Part shown: positions 55,282 through 63,533 of the stretch, one piece after another
How the letters are laid out: each line of letters opens with the position of its first letter
How positions within the stretch are numbered: position 1 is the stretch's first letter
From: Phaeobacter sp. 11ANDIMAR09
Lineage (GTDB): Bacteria > Pseudomonadota > Alphaproteobacteria > Rhodobacterales > Rhodobacteraceae
Direction of reading: 5' to 3'
Length of the DNA: 64,000 bases
Assembly: GCF_001294455.1 (NCBI RefSeq)
Contig: NZ_LIKT01000008.1
Coordinates: forward strand, 124,001 to 188,000
Notes under the pieces: generated by a model
The model's input: only the letters and a program-made list of their open reading frames with translations
Databases searched by the model: none
Told to the model about the DNA's origin: nothing
Made by a program: the position numbers and the translations under genes

Positions 55282-55820
55282 TTCCTAGCTCCTTGCTGGT
55301 CTTTGCTCGTGTTGGGTCGCGCCCTCAGTTTCATAGGAAGAGTTGGCCTCCGGCCATCCGGGTGCGGCAAGAAGACCGCCAATGTGGGGCAGTAGAATCC
55401 CGCGTCGCGCCAGCTTTCTCCTGTGGCGCAGCCGCCAGCCGCCGCCCCGCTGGCAAGGGTAGACCTGGGTGCATAAGATCCACGGCCATTTCCACGCACT
55501 CCCCGGTTGCTATGCTCTATATCTTCAGCATGGGGCAGCGCGCCGGCGGGAACCGTCAAAACGCGACAAGCTTCAAGAAAACTTCATTTCGCCAACTATT
55601 GGCGCTTTTTGCTCGATAATGAACGCAGTTTTAACGCGAATGCCATCCAGCGCTTCTGCTGGTATTTAGCGAATGCGACATCCAATCAAACCGGTTCGAC
55701 AACCTAGCCTGTGGCCTCAGAGCCGCCAGGCGCAGGGGCGTGCCCCGCCATTCCAGCTTTTTGTGAGTGGAAATTCCGTCAGCCCAGGCATTGCCGCCGC
55801 AAATTTTCTTGCCCTCAAGG
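55282..55820. other. Long intergenic region with no recognisable gene
   Basis: About 540 bases between the Rieske gene and the rpoE promoter. Open frames on both strands here encode low-quality Arg/Pro/Ser-rich products and lack ribosome sites. A short stem CGCCAA-cta-TTGGCG followed by CTTTTT (55590-55610, plus strand) looks like a terminator without an upstream plus-strand gene; it might end a small RNA, but I cannot support one. Confidence 0.4.
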
Positions 55821-55850
55821 TGATCCAAAAATTGCACCCATCCGTAGCCT
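55821..55850 (+). promoter_or_regulatory. Sigma-E-type promoter of rpoE
   Basis: TGATCC (55821-55826), 18 bases, then TAGCCT (55845-55850). The -35 sequence and spacing match the RpoE promoters of Rhodobacter and match two other sites near this locus. It implies autoregulation and a transcript start near 55857. Confidence 0.75.
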
Positions 55851-55947
55851 TGGTATGATACAAACAGTACTCGAACATCCGCTTGCAGGCCGCGCGCACA
55901 AAGGCCCGCCCCCAAAAGGACGTGCCGTGCAATTGGAAGCCCCGCAA

Positions 55948-56484
55948 ATGTCCCAGATGACAGTCTGGTTGGTCGCCGTGCGTGACCAGCGGGATCGGGC
56001 TGCGTTTGGGGCATTGTTCGACTATTTTGCACCTCGTTTAAAAGGCTTCATCATGCGATCGGGCACCAGTGCGGCGCAGGCAGAAGAGATCGTTCAGGAT
56101 GTGATGCTGACCGTGTGGCGCAAGGCCGCGATGTTCGACCCTCATCGTGCCCAGGCCTCTGCCTGGATTTATCAAATTGCCCGGAACCGCCAAATCGATA
56201 TCATCCGCAAAGAGAACCGTCCCATCCCTGATGAATTGGCGCAGGACCCGGGATCTGAACCGGATGCAAGCCAAATTCTGGCCTTTGATCAAGAGGCTGA
56301 GCAGCTTAAAACCGCTTTGGAAATGCTGCAACCAGACCAGAAAGAGATGATCCAGAAAGCCTATATGGGGGATCTCACCCATCAGGAAATCAGTCTTCAA
56401 ACCGGCCTGCCGCTTGGCACAGTGAAATCACGCATTCGCCTCGGCCTGAACCGGTTGCGCAAAGAGTTAAAGGGGTTGCGATAA
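55948..56484 (+). CDS. rpoE: RpoE-type ECF sigma factor (singlet-oxygen response)
   Basis: 178 residues from the chosen ATG. Region 2 (about 15-85: AAFGALFDYFAPRLKGF, EEIVQDVMLTVWRKA, ASAWIYQIARNRQIDIIR) and region 4 (about 120-175: LTHQEISLQTGLPLGTVKSRIRLGLNRLR) are both complete. The partner ChrR follows with no gap. ATG 55855 would sit at the predicted transcript start, so a later start is needed; a GTG at 55927 with AAGGA upstream is an alternative to 55948. In Rhodobacter the RpoE/ChrR pair responds to singlet oxygen. Confidence 0.9.
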   Translation: MSQMTVWLVAVRDQRDRAAFGALFDYFAPRLKGFIMRSGTSAAQAEEIVQDVMLTVWRKAAMFDPHRAQASAWIYQIARNRQIDIIRKENRPIPDELAQDPGSEPDASQILAFDQEAEQLKTALEMLQPDQKEMIQKAYMGDLTHQEISLQTGLPLGTVKSRIRLGLNRLRKELKGLR

Positions 56485-57120
56485 ATGTCTGCAATCACAC
56501 ACCATATTCCAGATGACATGATGGCAGCCTATGCCGCCGGCACGCTGCCCCACCCCTTTGCCATGGTTGTCGCAGCCCATGTTTCGCTTTGTGCTGACTG
56601 CCGCGCCACTTTGGAAGCCTATCACACTCTTGGCGGCGCCTTGCTGGAGCAGACCGAAGATATTGAGGTCTCAAAGGGGTTGAAGTCCAATTTGATGGCG
56701 CTGTTGGATGAACCGGCCCCTCCCGAACCGGTGTTTGACGCCAAAGGCATATACCCCGGTCCGGTGATGGCGGCCTTAAAAGGCAGATCGCCACGCTGGA
56801 AGACACTTGGCATGGGGGTAAAGCAAAGCATCCTGTCTGAAACCGAAGGGGGATCTGTTCGACTGCTGTATATTCCCGCCGGACAGGCCGTGCCCGATCA
56901 CAGCCACAACGGGCTGGAGCTCACGCTGGTTCTTCAGGGCAGTTTCAGTGATGAAACCGGCCGCTTTGGTGTCGGGGACGTCGAGATCGGCGACGAGGAT
57001 CTGGAGCATACCCCAATTGCGGATGCCGGAGATGCCTGCATTTGCCTCGCCGCAACGGATGCGCCGCTGCGCTTCAACGCCTTCCTGCCGCGACTGCTAC
57101 AGCCCCTGTTCCGTATTTAG
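56485..57120 (+). CDS. chrR: ChrR-family zinc anti-sigma factor
   Basis: 211 residues. The N-terminal anti-sigma domain has the zinc ligands His6, His32, Cys36 and Cys39. The C-terminal cupin domain has His139, His141, Glu145 and His175. This matches Rhodobacter ChrR, in which the first domain holds RpoE and the second is needed for release on singlet oxygen. The gene starts immediately after the rpoE stop. Confidence 0.92.
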   Translation: MSAITHHIPDDMMAAYAAGTLPHPFAMVVAAHVSLCADCRATLEAYHTLGGALLEQTEDIEVSKGLKSNLMALLDEPAPPEPVFDAKGIYPGPVMAALKGRSPRWKTLGMGVKQSILSETEGGSVRLLYIPAGQAVPDHSHNGLELTLVLQGSFSDETGRFGVGDVEIGDEDLEHTPIADAGDACICLAATDAPLRFNAFLPRLLQPLFRI

Positions 57121-57220
57121 GGGCTTTGCGAGCGCCAGGCGAAAGCCCCCGCATATCGCGAGTTTTCTGGTGCGGCAGCTGTGGTCGGCTAGAAGCTTAA
57201 AGGGCTCAGGTTTGCTCAAT

Positions 57221-57946
57221 CTATCTGAAACGATAAACCGCCCAGTCAGGCAAAAGAGCCAATGCCTTAATCACCCAAGAAAAGGGACGTGGAAAATCGG
57301 TCCGAAACCGGCGATGTTCCATAGCACTGAGCACATGATGGGCAGCCGTTTCAGCCGACATCAACTGTGGCATTTCAAAATCGTTCTTGTCCGTCAGACG
57401 TGTCTTGATGAAACCTGGATTCACAATGCGGACTGTAACGCCGCTGCCTCTCAGGTCGTGGCGCATGGTTTCCGCCAGGCTGATCAGCGCAGCCTTGCTG
57501 GCCCCATATCCAATTGCGGCAGGCAAGCCGCGATACCCCGCCAGCGATCCGACCAAGGTGATGCTTCCCGCCTCTTTGGCGATGAACCGAGGCAGCACAT
57601 GGCCCAGAACCCGCAGAGCGCCGCCATAGTTCACATCCATCATCGCTAAGGCTGCACCACTGTCCCAGGCCTGGCTTCGCATCGGCACATAGGCCCCGGC
57701 ATTGTAGATGACCCCGTCAATCTCATCCAGGCTCTCTGCCGCCGCTTTGACCGCACCGTCATCTGTAACATCCAGGGCCAGCGGTGTTGCCGCCCCCAGC
57801 GCCCAGGTCAGCTCTTGCAGCCGCTGCTTTGATCGGGCCGACACAATGACATGAGCGCCAGCCCCCACCAAACCCTTGGCGATCTCCCGTCCCAGGCCTT
57901 CGCTGGCGCCTATCAACCAATAGGTCTTGCCGCTCAGCCTGCTCAT
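57221..57946 (-). CDS. SDR-family oxidoreductase of the RpoE locus
   Basis: 241 residues. The nucleotide motif is GASEGLGREIAKG (about 13-25), NAG is at about 87-89, and the catalytic Tyr and Lys lie in GYGASKAAL. It is the second gene of a minus-strand pair with the DUF1365 gene (ATGA overlap) and so is expected to be under RpoE. A homologous SDR is part of the Rhodobacter RpoE-linked operon, as far as I recall. Substrate unknown, likely a lipid intermediate by context. Confidence 0.85.
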   Translation of the reverse strand: MSRLSGKTYWLIGASEGLGREIAKGLVGAGAHVIVSARSKQRLQELTWALGAATPLALDVTDDGAVKAAAESLDEIDGVIYNAGAYVPMRSQAWDSGAALAMMDVNYGGALRVLGHVLPRFIAKEAGSITLVGSLAGYRGLPAAIGYGASKAALISLAETMRHDLRGSGVTVRIVNPGFIKTRLTDKNDFEMPQLMSAETAAHHVLSAMEHRRFRTDFPRPFSWVIKALALLPDWAVYRFR

Positions 57947-58710
57947 GAGCCGAGCCTGGAGGAGAGACTATCAGATATCAGGGGTTTGGGCGGTTTTGGT
58001 TTGCGCAGGAATGGGGCGCCTTTGGACCAGAGCTTCAGCGCCTGCCAATAAATCAGAGCCACAACCCGTACCGCCCCCAGCGGGCGGCGCAGAGCCACTC
58101 CAACCAAGGTAGCGGTGGTGAGTGGCCGGCGCAGCCCATTCAATGTCGCCAAAACGCCCTGATCGCCAGATTCATAGGCAATGCGGATATTGAAAGCGCG
58201 CTCTGTCATATCGAAATTAAAGCGATAGGTGCCTTTGACCTGCTGAAACGGCGAGACATGCATCAGTTTCTCGGCCTCGATCTGATCGGTGCGTTTGATC
58301 GGACGGAAATCAGAATGGGCACAAAAATAGCAATGCCGGTGACCAAATGTATTGTTGACCTCGGCAATAAAGGCGCGTGGTGCGCCATCAACTTCCGCAA
58401 TCCAAAAGCTCACTGGGTTGAAGTGAAACCAGAGGAAGCTCGGCTGGGTCAGAAGCAACAGCTTTGCCTGCGCGATGGGAAAGCCGCGCTTTTGCAGCTC
58501 CTCGCGAAACCAGCTCACCCCCTGGCCCGCGCCGCGTGGGCCACCATGGTGGCGGTCCTGCAGCGAGAACAGATTGAAGCGGTTGCGTGACATCAGCCGA
58601 GCCCCCCCTTCGCTCAGATCGGTCAAAACGTAGTCGACCCCATAGCGAAAGGCGTTTTTCAGGCTGCCGCGGCGGGCGTGGTAGGTCTGGGCTGAGACAA
58701 GTTCAATCAT
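57943..58710 (-). CDS. DUF1365 family protein
   Basis: 255 residues from MIELVSAQTYHARRG. Family marks are the FRYGVDYVLTDL and HFNPVSFWIAEVDG blocks and EVNNTFGHRHCYF. DUF1365 proteins are regular neighbours of the FAD oxidoreductase and Cfa-like genes found here, but their role is unknown. The ATG coincides with the predicted transcript start of an RpoE promoter (58715-58744), which predicts a leaderless message; a longer reading from 58755 would include the promoter itself. Confidence 0.85.
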   Translation of the reverse strand: MIELVSAQTYHARRGSLKNAFRYGVDYVLTDLSEGGARLMSRNRFNLFSLQDRHHGGPRGAGQGVSWFREELQKRGFPIAQAKLLLLTQPSFLWFHFNPVSFWIAEVDGAPRAFIAEVNNTFGHRHCYFCAHSDFRPIKRTDQIEAEKLMHVSPFQQVKGTYRFNFDMTERAFNIRIAYESGDQGVLATLNGLRRPLTTATLVGVALRRPLGAVRVVALIYWQALKLWSKGAPFLRKPKPPKPLISDSLSSRLGS

Positions 58711-58714
58711 ATTT

Positions 58715-58744
58715 AGACTACGCAAAATGACGGTGACTGGATCA
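58715..58744 (-). promoter_or_regulatory. Sigma-E-type promoter of the DUF1365-SDR operon
   Basis: On the minus strand TGATCC (58744-58739), 18 bases, TAGTCT (58720-58715). The start ATG at 58710-58708 lies five bases after the -10 element, where transcription should begin, so there is no room for a leader with a ribosome site. Confidence 0.75.
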
Positions 58745-58772
58745 CCGCAGGCCAAATTTTATTAAACAAAAG

Positions 58773-58802
58773 TGATCCGTAGCGTCAGCCCAGGCGTAAT
58801 GC
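58773..58802 (+). promoter_or_regulatory. Sigma-E-type promoter of the FAD oxidoreductase-cfa operon
   Basis: TGATCC (58773-58778), 18 bases, TAATGC (58797-58802). It is divergent from the previous promoter with 28 bases between the two -35 elements. The first ATG (58833) has GAGGAC upstream. Confidence 0.75.
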
Positions 58803-58832
58803 CTTCATTAGTTAGTACAAAATGAGGACAGT

Positions 58833-60182
58833 ATGCTGGATCAAACCCAAGGCCCGCGCCGCAAGGTCGCGATCATCGGAGGCGGAATATCCGGACTGTC
58901 CGCAGCCTATTATCTTGCCGCATCCCATGATGTGACCCTCTATGAGGCGGCGCCACGATTGGGCGGACACGCCCGCACGGTTCTGGCTGGAAGAAACGGC
59001 GACCAGCCGGTTGATACAGGCTTTATTGTTTTTAACTACGCCACCTACCCTTATTTGACGCGTCTGTTCCGGGATCTGGACGTTCCAGTCATCAAAAGTG
59101 AGATGAGCTTTTGTGCCAGCATCGACAACGGCCGCATCGAATACGGGCTTAACAGCCTCTCTGCGATCACGGCGCAAAAGCGCAACCTGTTCCGGCCCCA
59201 GTATTACAAGATGATTGCCGATATCCTGCGGTTTGGCCGCGAGGCCGAGGCGGCAGCAAAAGACGACACAATGACGATCGGTGAACTGGTCAACAAGCTG
59301 GGTCTTGGCCGATGGTTTCGCGACAATTACCTCCTACCCATGTGTGGGGCGATCTGGTCCACGCCGGTCACGGATGTCGACGCCTTCCCGGCAAAATCCC
59401 TGATCTCGTTTTTTCGAAATCACGCTTTGCTGGCAGGAACGGGGCAACATCAATGGTGGACCGTCAAAGGCGGCAGCATCGAATATGTTCGCCGCTTGGA
59501 AGCGGCCCTCAAGGCACGGGGCTGCACCATTCACACCGGCGCCCCCATTGAACAGGTTGCCCGCGCTGAGCCTGGTGTGTCCCTGGTGGTTCAGGGACAG
59601 GGTGCACAGCTTTTTGATGAGGTGGTCTTTGCCTGTCATTCGGATCAGGCGCTAAAAATTCTTGGCCATAGTGCAACTGCGGCGGAAACCTCCGCGCTTG
59701 GCTCCATTCGCTACCAAACCAACTCTGCCGTCCTACATTGTGACGAAAGTCAAATGCCCAGGCGCCGCTCCTGTTGGTCAAGCTGGGCCTATCGCAGCCA
59801 GAATGGGGGGCTGGGCGTGACCTATTGGATGAACCGACTGCAGAACATTCCCGAATGTGATCCGCTATTTGTGACGCTGAACCCAACCCGGCCAATCCCA
59901 GAGACCAAAATCTACGATCAGGTCGAGTTTTCCCACCCGGTTTTTGACCAAGCTGCCCTACAGGCACAGCGTGAGCTGCAGTCGATGCAGGGCCAAAACA
60001 ACACCTGGTTCGCAGGTGCCTACAACCGCCATGGCTTTCACGAAGACGGCATCGCCAGTGCAATGCGCATTGTCCGGATGATGAACTCGCAGACCCCAGT
60101 GACCGCAAAAGGATCCAAGCATGACATTGACGAACAAAGCGATGAAAAAGCAATTTCTGGAAACCTGCGCGCAACTGCGTGA
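58833..60182 (+). CDS. FAD-dependent amine-oxidase-like oxidoreductase
   Basis: 449 residues. The FAD motif AIIGGGISGLSAAYYLA is at about 13-29, followed by the Glu-rich strand end and GGHARTV. The fold is that of NAD(P)-binding/amine-oxidase-type flavoproteins, which include carotenoid and fatty-acid desaturating enzymes. Homologues lie next to rpoE-chrR in Rhodobacter, where this gene group has been linked to methylated and furan fatty acids and to ChrR turnover; the exact step for this protein is inferred. Its end overlaps the cfa gene by 62 bases. Confidence 0.85.
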   Translation: MLDQTQGPRRKVAIIGGGISGLSAAYYLAASHDVTLYEAAPRLGGHARTVLAGRNGDQPVDTGFIVFNYATYPYLTRLFRDLDVPVIKSEMSFCASIDNGRIEYGLNSLSAITAQKRNLFRPQYYKMIADILRFGREAEAAAKDDTMTIGELVNKLGLGRWFRDNYLLPMCGAIWSTPVTDVDAFPAKSLISFFRNHALLAGTGQHQWWTVKGGSIEYVRRLEAALKARGCTIHTGAPIEQVARAEPGVSLVVQGQGAQLFDEVVFACHSDQALKILGHSATAAETSALGSIRYQTNSAVLHCDESQMPRRRSCWSSWAYRSQNGGLGVTYWMNRLQNIPECDPLFVTLNPTRPIPETKIYDQVEFSHPVFDQAALQAQRELQSMQGQNNTWFAGAYNRHGFHEDGIASAMRIVRMMNSQTPVTAKGSKHDIDEQSDEKAISGNLRATA

Positions 60183-61278
60183 AGGGCGCCTAACTCTGCG
60201 CACGCCAGACGGAGAGCGCTATCAGTTCGGCGATCACGGCCCCGAAGCGGAGATGGAAATTCGCGACTGGGCAGCGGTCTCGGCCCTGGCAGCACATGGG
60301 CAGGTCGGACTGGGGGAGGCCTATGTCCAGGGGCTTTGGGACACACCTTCGATCGAGGGGTTAACCTCATTGGCGATGCTGAATCGTGAGCATCTGGGCA
60401 GCTATGATCAGGCCAGCCCCTTCAACCGCGTAAAGTTCCGCCTTGTTGATCGGGTCATACGGGCCAATTCCAAACGCGGATCGCGCAAGAACATTCGAGC
60501 CCATTATGATGTGGGGAATGAGTTTTATCAGCTCTGGCTAGATGAGGGCATGACCTATTCTTCGGGCCTCTTTGGCGATACCGGCGATGATCTGGCCCAG
60601 GCGCAGACGCGCAAGAACGAACGTGTCTTATCCCATCTCAATCAGGGTGAGCGGGTCTTGGAAATCGGCTGCGGCTGGGGGGGATTTGCTGAACAGGCCA
60701 GCGCCGAGGGACGCGATGTGACTGGCGTCACAATTTCGCGCAATCAACACGCCTATGCGGATTGCCGTCTAGATGGCCGCGCTGAAATACAGCTACGCGA
60801 TTATCGCGATGTGCGGGGAGCCTTCGACAATATCGTCTCCATCGAGATGATCGAAGCCGTGGGCGAAAAATACTGGCCCAGTTACTTTGACACGTTGAAA
60901 CGCAACCTGTCAGAGGGTGGCCGTGTCATGTTGCAGGCGATCACGGTTCCCGACAGTTTCTTTGAGACCTATCGCAGCTCCTCTGACTACATCCGGCAAT
61001 ATGTCTTCCCGGGGGGCATGCTGTTGTCAGATCAAGTGATCGCAGATCAAGCGCGAGCGGCTGGCCTGCAGGTGAAAAATTCTTTTGCCTTTGGCCAGGA
61101 CTACGGCAAGACCTGCCGGATCTGGGCGCAGCGTTTGGTGGCACAAAAACGTAAAATCCAAGAACAGGGCTACGACGAAGGATTTTTCCGCAACTGGCAG
61201 TACTATCTGGAGATCTGTGCCGCATCCTTTGCGATTGGACACACCAATGTTGTCCAGGTCGAGCTGGCCCATGCGTAG
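60121..61278 (+). CDS. Cyclopropane-fatty-acyl-phospholipid synthase-like methyltransferase
   Basis: 385 residues. The SAM motif is EIGCGWGGFAE (about 181-191), with HYDVGNEFYQLWLDEGMTYSSG (about 128-149) and the IEMIEAVGEKYWPSYF block of the Cfa family. It transfers a methyl group to the double bond of a membrane phospholipid acyl chain; members in Rhodobacter act in furan fatty acid synthesis rather than cyclopropanation. AGGA seven bases before the ATG supports the start inside the previous gene. Confidence 0.88.
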   Translation: MTLTNKAMKKQFLETCAQLREGRLTLRTPDGERYQFGDHGPEAEMEIRDWAAVSALAAHGQVGLGEAYVQGLWDTPSIEGLTSLAMLNREHLGSYDQASPFNRVKFRLVDRVIRANSKRGSRKNIRAHYDVGNEFYQLWLDEGMTYSSGLFGDTGDDLAQAQTRKNERVLSHLNQGERVLEIGCGWGGFAEQASAEGRDVTGVTISRNQHAYADCRLDGRAEIQLRDYRDVRGAFDNIVSIEMIEAVGEKYWPSYFDTLKRNLSEGGRVMLQAITVPDSFFETYRSSSDYIRQYVFPGGMLLSDQVIADQARAAGLQVKNSFAFGQDYGKTCRIWAQRLVAQKRKIQEQGYDEGFFRNWQYYLEICAASFAIGHTNVVQVELAHA

Positions 61279-61765
61279 CCTGTTGCTTTGGACCAGCCTG
61301 TGCTTGGCACCTGTCATTGCGGCGGCCTCGCAACCAGGTAATCTGCCACGCGGCGCAGAGCAGCGCGGAGAAGCGACGTTTCGTTTTCTGGGCTTTCCTA
61401 TCTACAAGGCGCGCCTGTTCACCCAGGGCGGTCAGCCACTGGATTGGTCACAAGATTTTGGCCTTGAGCTAACCTATCAGCGCCAGTTGAGCCAATCTGA
61501 TCTGGTGGAGGCCACCCTGCAAGAGATGGCCCGTATGGGAAACGCGTTGCCCATTCGGGATCAACTGCAGAAATGCTACCAGCCTGTTGAGGTCGGAGAC
61601 AGTTACCTGGCCGTCAGTGACGGGCCGGACAGGCTGACGTTTTGGCGCAGGGGAGTCCCGGTCTGCACCCTGTCCCAAGAAGCCATAAAAACCCGCTTTA
61701 TGGAGATTTTTCTGGGCAAAAACAGCCGCTCTGCAGGCTTCACACGGGCACTCCTAGGGCAATGA
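61271..61765 (+). CDS. Chalcone-isomerase-like exported protein
   Basis: 164 residues. A signal peptide (about 1-19) precedes a chalcone-isomerase-like domain (FRFLGFPIYKARLFT, LELTYQRQLSQSDLVEATLQEM, then a C-terminal FMEIFLG-type block). Bacterial members are thought to bind fatty acids rather than flavonoids. The start overlaps the end of the Cfa-like gene by eight bases and the stop overlaps the MFS start. Confidence 0.78.
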   Translation: MRSLLLWTSLCLAPVIAAASQPGNLPRGAEQRGEATFRFLGFPIYKARLFTQGGQPLDWSQDFGLELTYQRQLSQSDLVEATLQEMARMGNALPIRDQLQKCYQPVEVGDSYLAVSDGPDRLTFWRRGVPVCTLSQEAIKTRFMEIFLGKNSRSAGFTRALLGQ

Positions 61766-62991
61766 CGCAGTATCCAAGGGTCGGCCTTTATGCCTTGATG
61801 CTGGCCAGTGCAGGGATCCCTTTGTATATTCATCTGCCGCAATTTGCGGCAACCGATCTGGGTCTGAGCCTTGGCTCTCTTGGCGCTGTTCTATTGGCGA
61901 TCCGAGCCTTTGATCTGGTGCAGGATCCCTTGATTGGTTGGGCGGTGGATCGCTGGCCGCAATACCAGTCCAGCTTTGGTTGGGCTGCTGCCCTTGGCTT
62001 GGCTCTGGGGTTCCCGCTGTTGTTTGGGTTGCAACCCGGGCCCTATCTGCTGGCAAAAATGACCGTGATCCTGATGTTGCTCTTCTCGGCCTATAGTCTG
62101 GGAATGATCTTGCTCTACGGGCGCAGTGCCATGCTGAGCGGCTCAACCAGACCGCGCGATCTGATGACGCTCGCTGCGTTCCGCGAAAGCGGCATGCTGA
62201 TCGGCGTAATCCTGGCGGCAATTGCCCCGGCGCTGCTGGTTGGACTGGGGGCCGCCCGGCAGGGATATGCGGTCTTTGGGCTCTTCTTAGCGGCGCTGGC
62301 CATTCTTGCTGCCGTCTTGACCAGGCCGATTTGGAAGCGTCAGGCCGTGGTGGGGAGACCGCTTGGGGTTTCCAATCTCTGGCAGTCCGGGGCATCACAT
62401 CTGCTGGTTCTGGCGGTTCTAAACAGTCTGCCTGTGGCGCTGACCTCCACCCTGTTTTTGTTCTTTGTTCAGGATTACCTGGCGCTTCCCAAATTGGCTG
62501 GCCCGCTCTTGGTGCTGTTCTTTCTCTCTGCGGGGCTTGCCGTGCCTGCCTGGACCCTGTTGAGCCGCAGGATCGGTGCAAAGCCGTCGCTTTTGATCGC
62601 TATGCCTCTGGCACTTGCCAGCTTTGCTGGCGCTGCCTTCCTGGAACCGGGGGATGCGGTAGGTTTCACCTTGATCTGCATGGCCTCTGGGGCAGCGCTT
62701 GGTGCAGATATGCTCTTGTTGCCCGCCCTGTTCAGTATCTCGCTGACCAAAGCAGGCCTCAGCGCAGGCGCTGCCTTTGGCATCTGGTCCTTTGCCGGAA
62801 AACTTGCCCTGGCCCTGGCGGCTGCAATTGCTTTGCCCCTGCTTGAGGCTCGTGGTTTCAACCCCGGAACTGACAACACCAAAGCCGCGCTTGCCGCGCT
62901 GGTCACCGCCTATGCCATTCTTCCCTGTTTCCTGAAAACCCTGGCCTTTTGCTATGCGCTAAGGCTGCCTACCGAAAGTGCCTCGTCATGA
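61762..62991 (+). CDS. MFS transporter (GPH/MelB-like)
   Basis: 409 residues with about twelve membrane helices. The loop after helix 2 (FDLVQDPLIGWAVDRWPQ) is the mark of the glycoside-pentoside-hexuronide:cation group. In this locus it is more likely to move a lipid-related molecule, since it is coupled on both sides (ATGA) to lipid-type genes; that is inference. Confidence 0.82.
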   Translation: MTQYPRVGLYALMLASAGIPLYIHLPQFAATDLGLSLGSLGAVLLAIRAFDLVQDPLIGWAVDRWPQYQSSFGWAAALGLALGFPLLFGLQPGPYLLAKMTVILMLLFSAYSLGMILLYGRSAMLSGSTRPRDLMTLAAFRESGMLIGVILAAIAPALLVGLGAARQGYAVFGLFLAALAILAAVLTRPIWKRQAVVGRPLGVSNLWQSGASHLLVLAVLNSLPVALTSTLFLFFVQDYLALPKLAGPLLVLFFLSAGLAVPAWTLLSRRIGAKPSLLIAMPLALASFAGAAFLEPGDAVGFTLICMASGAALGADMLLLPALFSISLTKAGLSAGAAFGIWSFAGKLALALAAAIALPLLEARGFNPGTDNTKAALAALVTAYAILPCFLKTLAFCYALRLPTESASS

Positions 62992-63533
62992 AATTGCTCG
63001 CAGCCTGTCTGGTGATCTTGCTGATCGCCATCATCGCCAAAACCTATCTGTTCAGTTTTCGGTTCCAGTCTCCAAATGACTACGCCGAGACAGGACCACA
63101 CTTTGATCTCAAAAGGCATCTCTCCGGAGAAATCCTGTCCGAGGGTCTGATTTTTGGGCCAAACGGAAAAATGACCAATCGTTTTACCGCCAAAATGGTG
63201 GGAACTTGGGAGGGTGACACGGGGACTTTGACCGAAGAGTTCACCTATTCAAATGGCAAAACCCAAAGCCGGAAGTGGTATCTGACCCTTGGCCCCGATA
63301 ACACGTTTACCGCAGCCGCTGACGACTTGGTCGGGGAGGCTCAGGGCGTCGTGTCCGGTGCCACCGTGCGCTTGAGCTACGAAATCATCCTTCCGCAGGA
63401 ATCCGGCGGGCATACCCTGCAGGCCACAGATTGGATGTACTTGACCGCAGATGGCGCGATCCTGAACAAATCAGAGATGCGCAAATTTGGCCTGAAAGTT
63501 GCAGAACTCATCGCAACAATGCGCCCTCTCTGA
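62988..63533 (+). CDS. DUF3833 family membrane-anchored protein
   Basis: 181 residues. One N-terminal membrane helix (about 3-20) precedes a beta-rich domain with FGPNGKMTNRFTAKMVGTW (about 58-76), DDLVGEAQGVVSG and the end ATDWMYLTADGAILNKSEMRKFG typical of DUF3833. Function unknown. It is the last gene of the RpoE-linked plus-strand operon. Confidence 0.82.
   Translation: MKLLAACLVILLIAIIAKTYLFSFRFQSPNDYAETGPHFDLKRHLSGEILSEGLIFGPNGKMTNRFTAKMVGTWEGDTGTLTEEFTYSNGKTQSRKWYLTLGPDNTFTAAADDLVGEAQGVVSGATVRLSYEIILPQESGGHTLQATDWMYLTADGAILNKSEMRKFGLKVAELIATMRPL

Follow-up and report, generated by a model that had tools for sequence, protein, structure and literature searches.

What do three copies of one promoter-like element, set around the stress sigma factor gene rpoE of Phaeobacter sp. 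11ANDIMAR09, control? The stretch analysed here, referred to as the window, comprises 64,000 nucleotides (nt) of contig NZ_LIKT01000008.1, and the element, TGATCC-N18-TA, stands in it before rpoE (followed by chrR, for the anti-sigma factor), before a DUF1365 gene and before an FAD-dependent oxidoreductase gene; an initial annotation had taken the three copies to define a compact local RpoE regulon of nine genes. Direct reading and a pattern scan confirm all three positions, and the count of nine genes is correct (Table 1). We hold it to be probable from the sequence that the three sites are promoters for an RpoE (sigma-E) of the ECF11 family, that sigma-E would activate the rpoE-chrR operon as well as the two divergent units of a furan-fatty-acid (ufa) locus, that the rpoE and ufaO messages would be leaderless, that sigma-E would exist in two forms and that its regulon would reach well into the rest of the genome.

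TGATCC-N18-TA matches five times in the window, compared with a mean of 0.72 in shuffled sequence, and none of 100 shuffles gave five or more. The other two matches (28257 and 51712), which the initial annotation did not name, are without the CGTA end and are absent from the sites scoring above 11 bits with the matrix described below. The spacing originally proposed is true, but the motif was incomplete, since the CG ahead of TA is also part of it, giving TGATCC-N16-CGTA. Genome-wide, TGATCC-Nx-CGTA occurs 4, 13, 3, 3, 20, 5, 8, 9 and 6 times for x = 12 to 20 (71 in total); x = 16 accounts for 20 of these, whereas the other eight spacers average 6.4, with a maximum of 13 at x = 13. At the background of the other spacers, ∼0.09 sites of the form TGATCC-N16-CGTA would be expected in 64 kb, compared with the three present. 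The null was taken from other spacer lengths; reversing the pattern, a control that we avoided, would introduce CTAG, a tetranucleotide that is rare in many bacteria. The likeness to the Rhodobacter RpoE promoter that had been pointed out agrees with the R. sphaeroides motif as given in PMC5036791, TGATCC(N15)GCGTA; as is characteristic of ECF11 RpoE-ChrR systems, a promoter of this type precedes rpoE in the window, where it ends in CCGTA.

The sites are conserved in relatives. A search with the FAD oxidoreductase of the window provided 80 named ufaD loci of other genomes (the closest, in Pseudophaeobacter sp. EL27, at 87%), in which the counts for spacers 12 to 20 are 2, 2, 1, 2, 171, 4, 1, 0 and 2, that is, 171 of 185 at 16; the bases of the spacer vary across the loci although the sites are kept. 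With a scoring matrix built from 189 sites of these loci, the three sites of the window reach 20.9-24.4 bits and the next best position 13.5 bits. A site (TGATC-N17-CGTA within 250 nt) is found upstream of the FAD gene in 71 of the 80 loci, and the nine-gene order of the window is found again in 24. A chance motif is ruled out by the spacer counts together with this conservation. Separately, 22 Ruegeria loci (among L099-L126) hold an SDR gene, the FAD gene and companions with sigma-E sites, and no match to DUF1365, CMAS or rpoE was found in the stretch fetched for them (up to 6 kb on each side).

The proteins encoded around the sites point to the same system. RpoE has ECF regions 2 and 4 (PF04542, PF08281), its best solved relative being RpoE in 2q1z_A (E 2.7e-57), and the zinc-binding anti-sigma and cupin-like domains are both present in the adjacent ChrR. 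When ChrR is aligned with 2z2s_B, its first domain shows the ligands H-x3-C-x2-C and its cupin domain shows H-x-H-x3-E and a further H, the latter set corresponding to residues 141, 143, 147 and 177 named in PMC6852236. By family and place, the FAD gene is probably ufaD (RSP_1091), the DUF1365 gene ufaO (RSP_1090) and the CMAS gene a probable ufaM; the functions of the three families in the furan fatty acid pathway are those described in PMC7380195. Scored with the NCBIfam models for cyclopropane synthases, the CMAS protein does not reach their cut-offs (best 243.9 vs 400). For the 164-residue protein no Pfam or NCBIfam match was obtained at 0.001. That the units around rpoE-chrR are RpoE targets, as had been suggested, agrees with PMC7074977, which lists the RSP_1087-1091 genes, folE2 and fasciclin among the sigma-E targets of R. 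sphaeroides. The promoters and the assignment are sound, and the nine genes (rpoE-chrR, the furan-fatty-acid genes and their companions) are the known core of a known regulon; the features that most deserve attention are the placement of the start codons and a second locus elsewhere in the genome.

Table 1. Sigma-E promoter sites and genes of the rpoE-chrR-ufa locus in the window
Feature	Coordinates	Strand	Details
Sigma-E promoter of rpoE-chrR (predicted)	55821..55850	+	TGATCC-N18-TAGCCT; TGATCC-N16-CGTA; TA at 55845; 20.9 bits
rpoE, predicted long form, 209 aa	55855..56484	+	ATG at inferred transcription start
rpoE, predicted short form, 185 aa	55927..56484	+	Internal GTG, AAGGA upstream; core matches 2q1z_A
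chrR, zinc anti-sigma factor	56485..57120	+	TIGR02451 207.5 bits (cut-off 124.5); aligned with 2z2s_B
SDR oxidoreductase, RSP_1087-like by family and place	57221..57946	-	PF00106, E 2e-39
ufaO homologue (DUF1365)	57943..58710	-	PF07103, E 2.8e-64; start codon at inferred transcription start 58710
Sigma-E promoter of ufaO-SDR (predicted)	58744-58715	-	TGATCC-N18-TAGTCT; TA at 58720-58719; 21.0 bits
Sigma-E promoter of ufaD operon (predicted)	58773..58802	+	TGATCC-N18-TAATGC; TA at 58797-58798; 24.4 bits
ufaD homologue, FAD-dependent oxidoreductase	58833..60182	+	PF01593, PF13450
Probable ufaM, S-adenosylmethionine-dependent fatty-acyl methylase (CMAS family)	60121..61278	+	PF02353, E 1.8e-74
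164-aa protein	61271..61765	+	Signal-peptide-like beginning, by eye
GPH/MFS transporter, RSP_1089-like	61762..62991	+	PF13347, E 2.1e-36
DUF3833 protein, RSP_1088-like by place	62988..63533	+	PF12915, E 5.2e-52

What the initial annotation had overlooked in the three promoter units is a start codon at the expected transcription start in two of them, those of rpoE and ufaO. We placed the start at the tenth nucleotide after the T of CGTA (T+10), counting each distinct promoter once and naming loci without a site separately. Ahead of rpoE, an in-frame ATG stands exactly there (55855); the internal GTG 55927 follows 24 codons later, and ATG 55948 follows 31 codons later. Where a site is present (78 distinct rpoE loci), the ATG lies at T+10 in 74, at T+11 in 3 and at T+13 in 1, and in all 78 its frame is that of rpoE and runs into the gene without a stop. 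The corresponding ATG of ufaO, in 44 loci, is at T+10 in 28, at T+11 in 1 and at T+13 in 14, with one locus lacking it and 43 being in frame. The ufaD promoters, taken as a control, have an ATG at T+10 in only 3 of 90 cases, and 22-28 nt separate T+10 from the gene start in 82 of 86; in the window, the predicted ufaD leader of 26 nt runs to ATG 58833. Of 17 promoters checked within this genome, 10 have no ATG at T+7 to T+14, and 5 have an ATG at T+10 opening into the gene (rpoE and ufaO of both the window and the second locus described below, and one fasciclin gene). Six plasmid records were also inspected: four carry a site, followed in every case at T+10 to T+12 by an ATG that is open and in frame, with the annotated start further downstream; no site was found in the other two, from Azospirillum and Skermanella. 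Because the start of the message would coincide with the start codon for rpoE, and in most cases for ufaO, the two mRNAs are likely to be leaderless. Literature searches joining ChrR with leaderless returned nothing relevant, which does not show that the idea is unpublished.

Translation from the upstream ATG would add an N-terminal extension to RpoE, which we analysed in the 83 loci (74 of them distinct) whose in-frame ATG falls precisely at T+10; counting in-frame cases only, extension lengths are 90 to 174 nt. In 63 of the 74 distinct extensions a further start in the rpoE frame precedes the conserved core by 11-16 codons, in 44 of them with a Shine-Dalgarno-like stretch, compared with 18 and 1 in the other frames. 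A start codon stands exactly 14 codons before the core in 38 extensions (GTG 32, TTG 5, ATG 1). Valine at that position is encoded by GTG in 32 of 34 cases (GTA in 2), compared with 96 of 201 elsewhere in the extensions, and because it is nearly always GTG, the position has the behavior of a start codon. The internal start of the window is GTG 55927, near the beginning of the solved R. sphaeroides protein. An AlphaFold model of the long form (mean pLDDT 75, pTM 0.46) gives pLDDT 40-52 for residues 1-30, compared with 90-97 for residues 31-110, with the second domain uncertain (54-73). A scan of 55300-58850 with the sigma-70 consensus, which covers promoters of that type only, found no basal promoter upstream of rpoE.

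The whole-genome motif scan called for by the initial annotation, run with TGATCC-N16-CGTA, returned 20 strict sites. By inspection of reading frames, 13 of the 20 (18.6-26.7 bits) precede genes, in agreement with 20 minus the background of 6.4: rpoE, ufaO and ufaD of the window; the ferrochelatase gene; two folE2 genes and an SDR gene near one of them; a glutathione peroxidase gene; three fasciclin genes; and ufaO and ufaD of the second locus. The remaining seven are inside coding sequence or have no same-strand gene ahead, and score at most 17.3 bits (four below 15). The site ahead of the ferrochelatase gene, hemH, reaches 25.8 bits (L008, G000:C1:270711-270736, minus strand). Each folE2 gene has a sigma-E site of its own (G000:C45:9652 and 11691; L010), and the SDR gene with a site is near the folE2 of contig C45. 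Stealth-type genes lie beside sigma-E-linked genes on small contigs, at L031:76-1149 (C58, by Pfam) and L024:191-1216 (C45, by sequence resemblance).

In R. sphaeroides, rpoHII depends on sigma-E, as reported in PMC6852236. We scanned ∼500 nt upstream of the rpoHII-like gene here and in 29 relatives for which loci were returned (11 congeners and 18 others). No sigma-E site was found in that interval in this genome and the 11 congeners, and sites above 16 bits lie at -113 to -163 in 7 of the 18 non-congeneric relatives (L192, L193, L196, L197, L200, L201, L208). Going by the motif, the RpoE to RpoHII link of the cascade appears to be missing in this genus, and the cascade seems to be variable between relatives. 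The rpoHII cascade is a trait of R. sphaeroides, not something required of the ECF11 family.

The second locus is on contig C36 (23.8 kb), where rpoE-chrR is followed by the genes for an SDR, UfaO, UfaD, CMAS, a protein of the 164-aa type, the transporter and DUF3833. The gene order is that of the window except for a fasciclin gene inserted after chrR; a photolyase gene with a weak site (15.6 bits) and fasciclin genes lie further off. The two RpoE proteins are 77% and the two ChrR proteins 71% identical, the C36 ChrR aligns with the 2z2s_B ligands likewise, and two strict sigma-E sites are present, ahead of ufaO and ufaD. The rpoE promoter of this foreign-looking type is degenerate (L030:662, L154), with TGTA in C36 and a spacer of 17 in the same-genus genome G002; the in-frame ATG at T+10 is kept in both. 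In G002, the C36 type is the only ChrR copy (RpoE 99%, ChrR 94%, transporter 99%, other genes 81-99%). Two copies are rare: in a survey of 394 genomes of the family, as a rule one per genus, ChrR was found at E 1e-40 or better in 316, and reading of the rows showed two copies in only two, this genome and G151, while among 100 relatives 68 have ChrR at 1e-20 and only this genome has two. In G151 (L165, L166), no ufa genes were found beside one of the copies in the 19 kb taken. In a UfaD tree of 93 rows, the C36 copy is nearest G002 and G049 and the window copy nearest Pseudophaeobacter, and because the two copies group with different relatives, acquisition of the C36 locus would fit better than duplication in place, which is the less likely origin. 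Judged by eye from alignments to 2q1z, the two sigma factors are similar in the regions that read DNA, so cross-talk between the two sigma-E systems would be expected.

How firmly can these results be read as a wider regulon with leaderless messages and two forms of sigma-E? Several points weigh against this reading: the transcription start at T+10 is itself deduced from sequence; 12 further rpoE loci have no site under the pattern, and neither do 28 DUF1365 and 23 ufaD loci within 150 nt, many DUF1365 genes being internal to an operon; at two of the 17 promoters of this genome, the ATG (T+10 or T+11) starts a frame that stops after only 16-17 codons; the stretch of RpoE found only in the long form is changing rapidly (42/41/70 changes at the three codon positions, synonymous to non-synonymous 36/69 in 12 disjoint pairs, compared with 539/130 for the core), and its residues 1-33 have no predicted structure; the rpoE promoter of C36, with TGTA and not CGTA, scores only 13.2 bits; and the composition of C36 correlates with that of the window at 0.875, compared with 0.98-0.99 between pieces of the window and 0.87-0.94 for the ufa loci of four other genomes. 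The rapid change and the lack of predicted structure, the conserved internal start, the short frames at two promoters and the choice of a downstream start by the annotators of the four plasmid records would all suit a cell that makes only the short RpoE, in which case the ATG at T+10 would reflect a sequence favored for initiation, and the frame ahead of the short form would be an untranslated leader; we find this unlikely, however, given an upstream ATG that is in frame and open in every one of the 78 distinct loci, at many lengths, an excess of third-position changes in the extension (70 vs 42 and 41) and the near absence of such an ATG from ufaD promoters of the same type. A slightly better case, though still a doubtful one, can be made that only the long form is made and the internal GTG, TTG or ATG is unused: the ATG at the presumed transcription start is nearly constant, 11 of 74 extensions have no internal start in the interval of 11-16 codons, and in 30 of 74 there is none accompanied by a Shine-Dalgarno-like stretch, but the peak of start codons 14 codons before the core and the GTG bias among valine codons there speak against it. 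Tentatively, and at somewhat short of an even chance, we propose instead that many Alphaproteobacteria make their ECF11 sigma factor in two forms, a leaderless long one with a disordered tail and a short one from the internal start, and that, by analogy with Streptomyces sigma-R', the tail may tune lifetime or ChrR binding.

As to the extent of the regulon, the three strong sites in 3 kb, the lack of any other site above 13.5 bits in the window and the recurrence of the gene order in relatives would all be natural for a self-contained nine-gene regulon defined by three promoters, but ten further strict sites in promoter position and a second rpoE-chrR-ufa locus make this very improbable, and the claim of a compact local regulon does not stand. 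That the second locus is an assembly contaminant also seems improbable, if less so. Its composition and its nearest relatives (G002 and G049, not the kin of the window copy) would be explained in this way; the stated contamination of the genome is 0.18%, however, G002 of the same genus carries this type of locus as its sole ChrR copy, and the end sequence of C36 has relatives of 86% and 77% on contigs C3 and C45. As to a possible plasmid origin of C36, a search with the right half of the contig matched one plasmid record, over 133 bases.

In the circuit that we favor, ChrR would hold sigma-E until singlet oxygen leads to the loss of ChrR, as published for R. sphaeroides; free sigma-E with RNA polymerase would then use TGATCC-N16-CGTA, starting ∼10 nt after the T, to induce rpoE-chrR and the two divergent units of the furan-fatty-acid locus. 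The induced rpoE message would yield the long sigma-E with its disordered tail beside the short form, and the furan-fatty-acid products, which R. sphaeroides requires for normal ChrR loss, would close a positive feedback; when these genes are missing in R. sphaeroides, sigma-E activity is reported not to rise normally under singlet oxygen (PMC6852236). The other motif-bearing genes, among them those of the second rpoE-chrR-ufa locus, the two folE2 genes, hemH and the glutathione peroxidase and fasciclin genes, would respond as well, and, going by the motif, rpoHII would not.

The closest known system is the RpoE (ECF11)-ChrR regulon of R. sphaeroides with RSP_1087-1091, which shares the motif, the sigma/anti-sigma pair, the zinc ligands, the companion genes and the folE2 and fasciclin targets. 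It differs in that here ufaO is read from a separate, divergent promoter, the ufaM-like gene is part of the ufaD operon, no rpoHII motif was found in the upstream interval scanned, there is a second locus, hemH and the glutathione peroxidase gene carry sites, and the photolyase gene, here on C36, has just its weak site. The genes for CMAS, the FAD oxidoreductase and DUF1365 stand together as in R. palustris RPA2569-2571 (PMC7380195); unlike the Ufa genes of R. palustris and R. sphaeroides, they form two divergent sigma-E units beside rpoE-chrR. For the two forms of RpoE, the nearest parallel is S. coelicolor sigma-R/sigma-R' with RsrA, in which, as would be the case here, a self-activated promoter feeds a start codon further upstream in the same frame, so that the protein gains an N-terminal tail: sigma-R' comes from such a promoter, has 55 extra residues and is short-lived (PMC4921905), and the ZAS anti-sigma factors count both RsrA and ChrR among their founding members (PMC6852236). 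The sigma factor is a different one, however, the upstream start here lies at the presumed 5' end of the message, and the consensus scan found no sigma-70 type promoter upstream of rpoE.

For the organism, a sigma-E target in the heme pathway (hemH) would fit the removal of photosensitizing porphyrin. A genome with two sigma-E loci is a natural case for interference between copies of one stress circuit, and because the second ChrR (71% identical) could hold the sigma factor, a single chrR deletion may be unclean and might mislead. Annotations of a well-studied stress regulator may place its start codon too far downstream, as in the four plasmid records. If the two-form proposal is true, two distant circuits with zinc anti-sigma factors share the same two-form device, and the singlet-oxygen response would gain a further layer, at the level of translation, from a sigma-E that is leaderless and has two starts.

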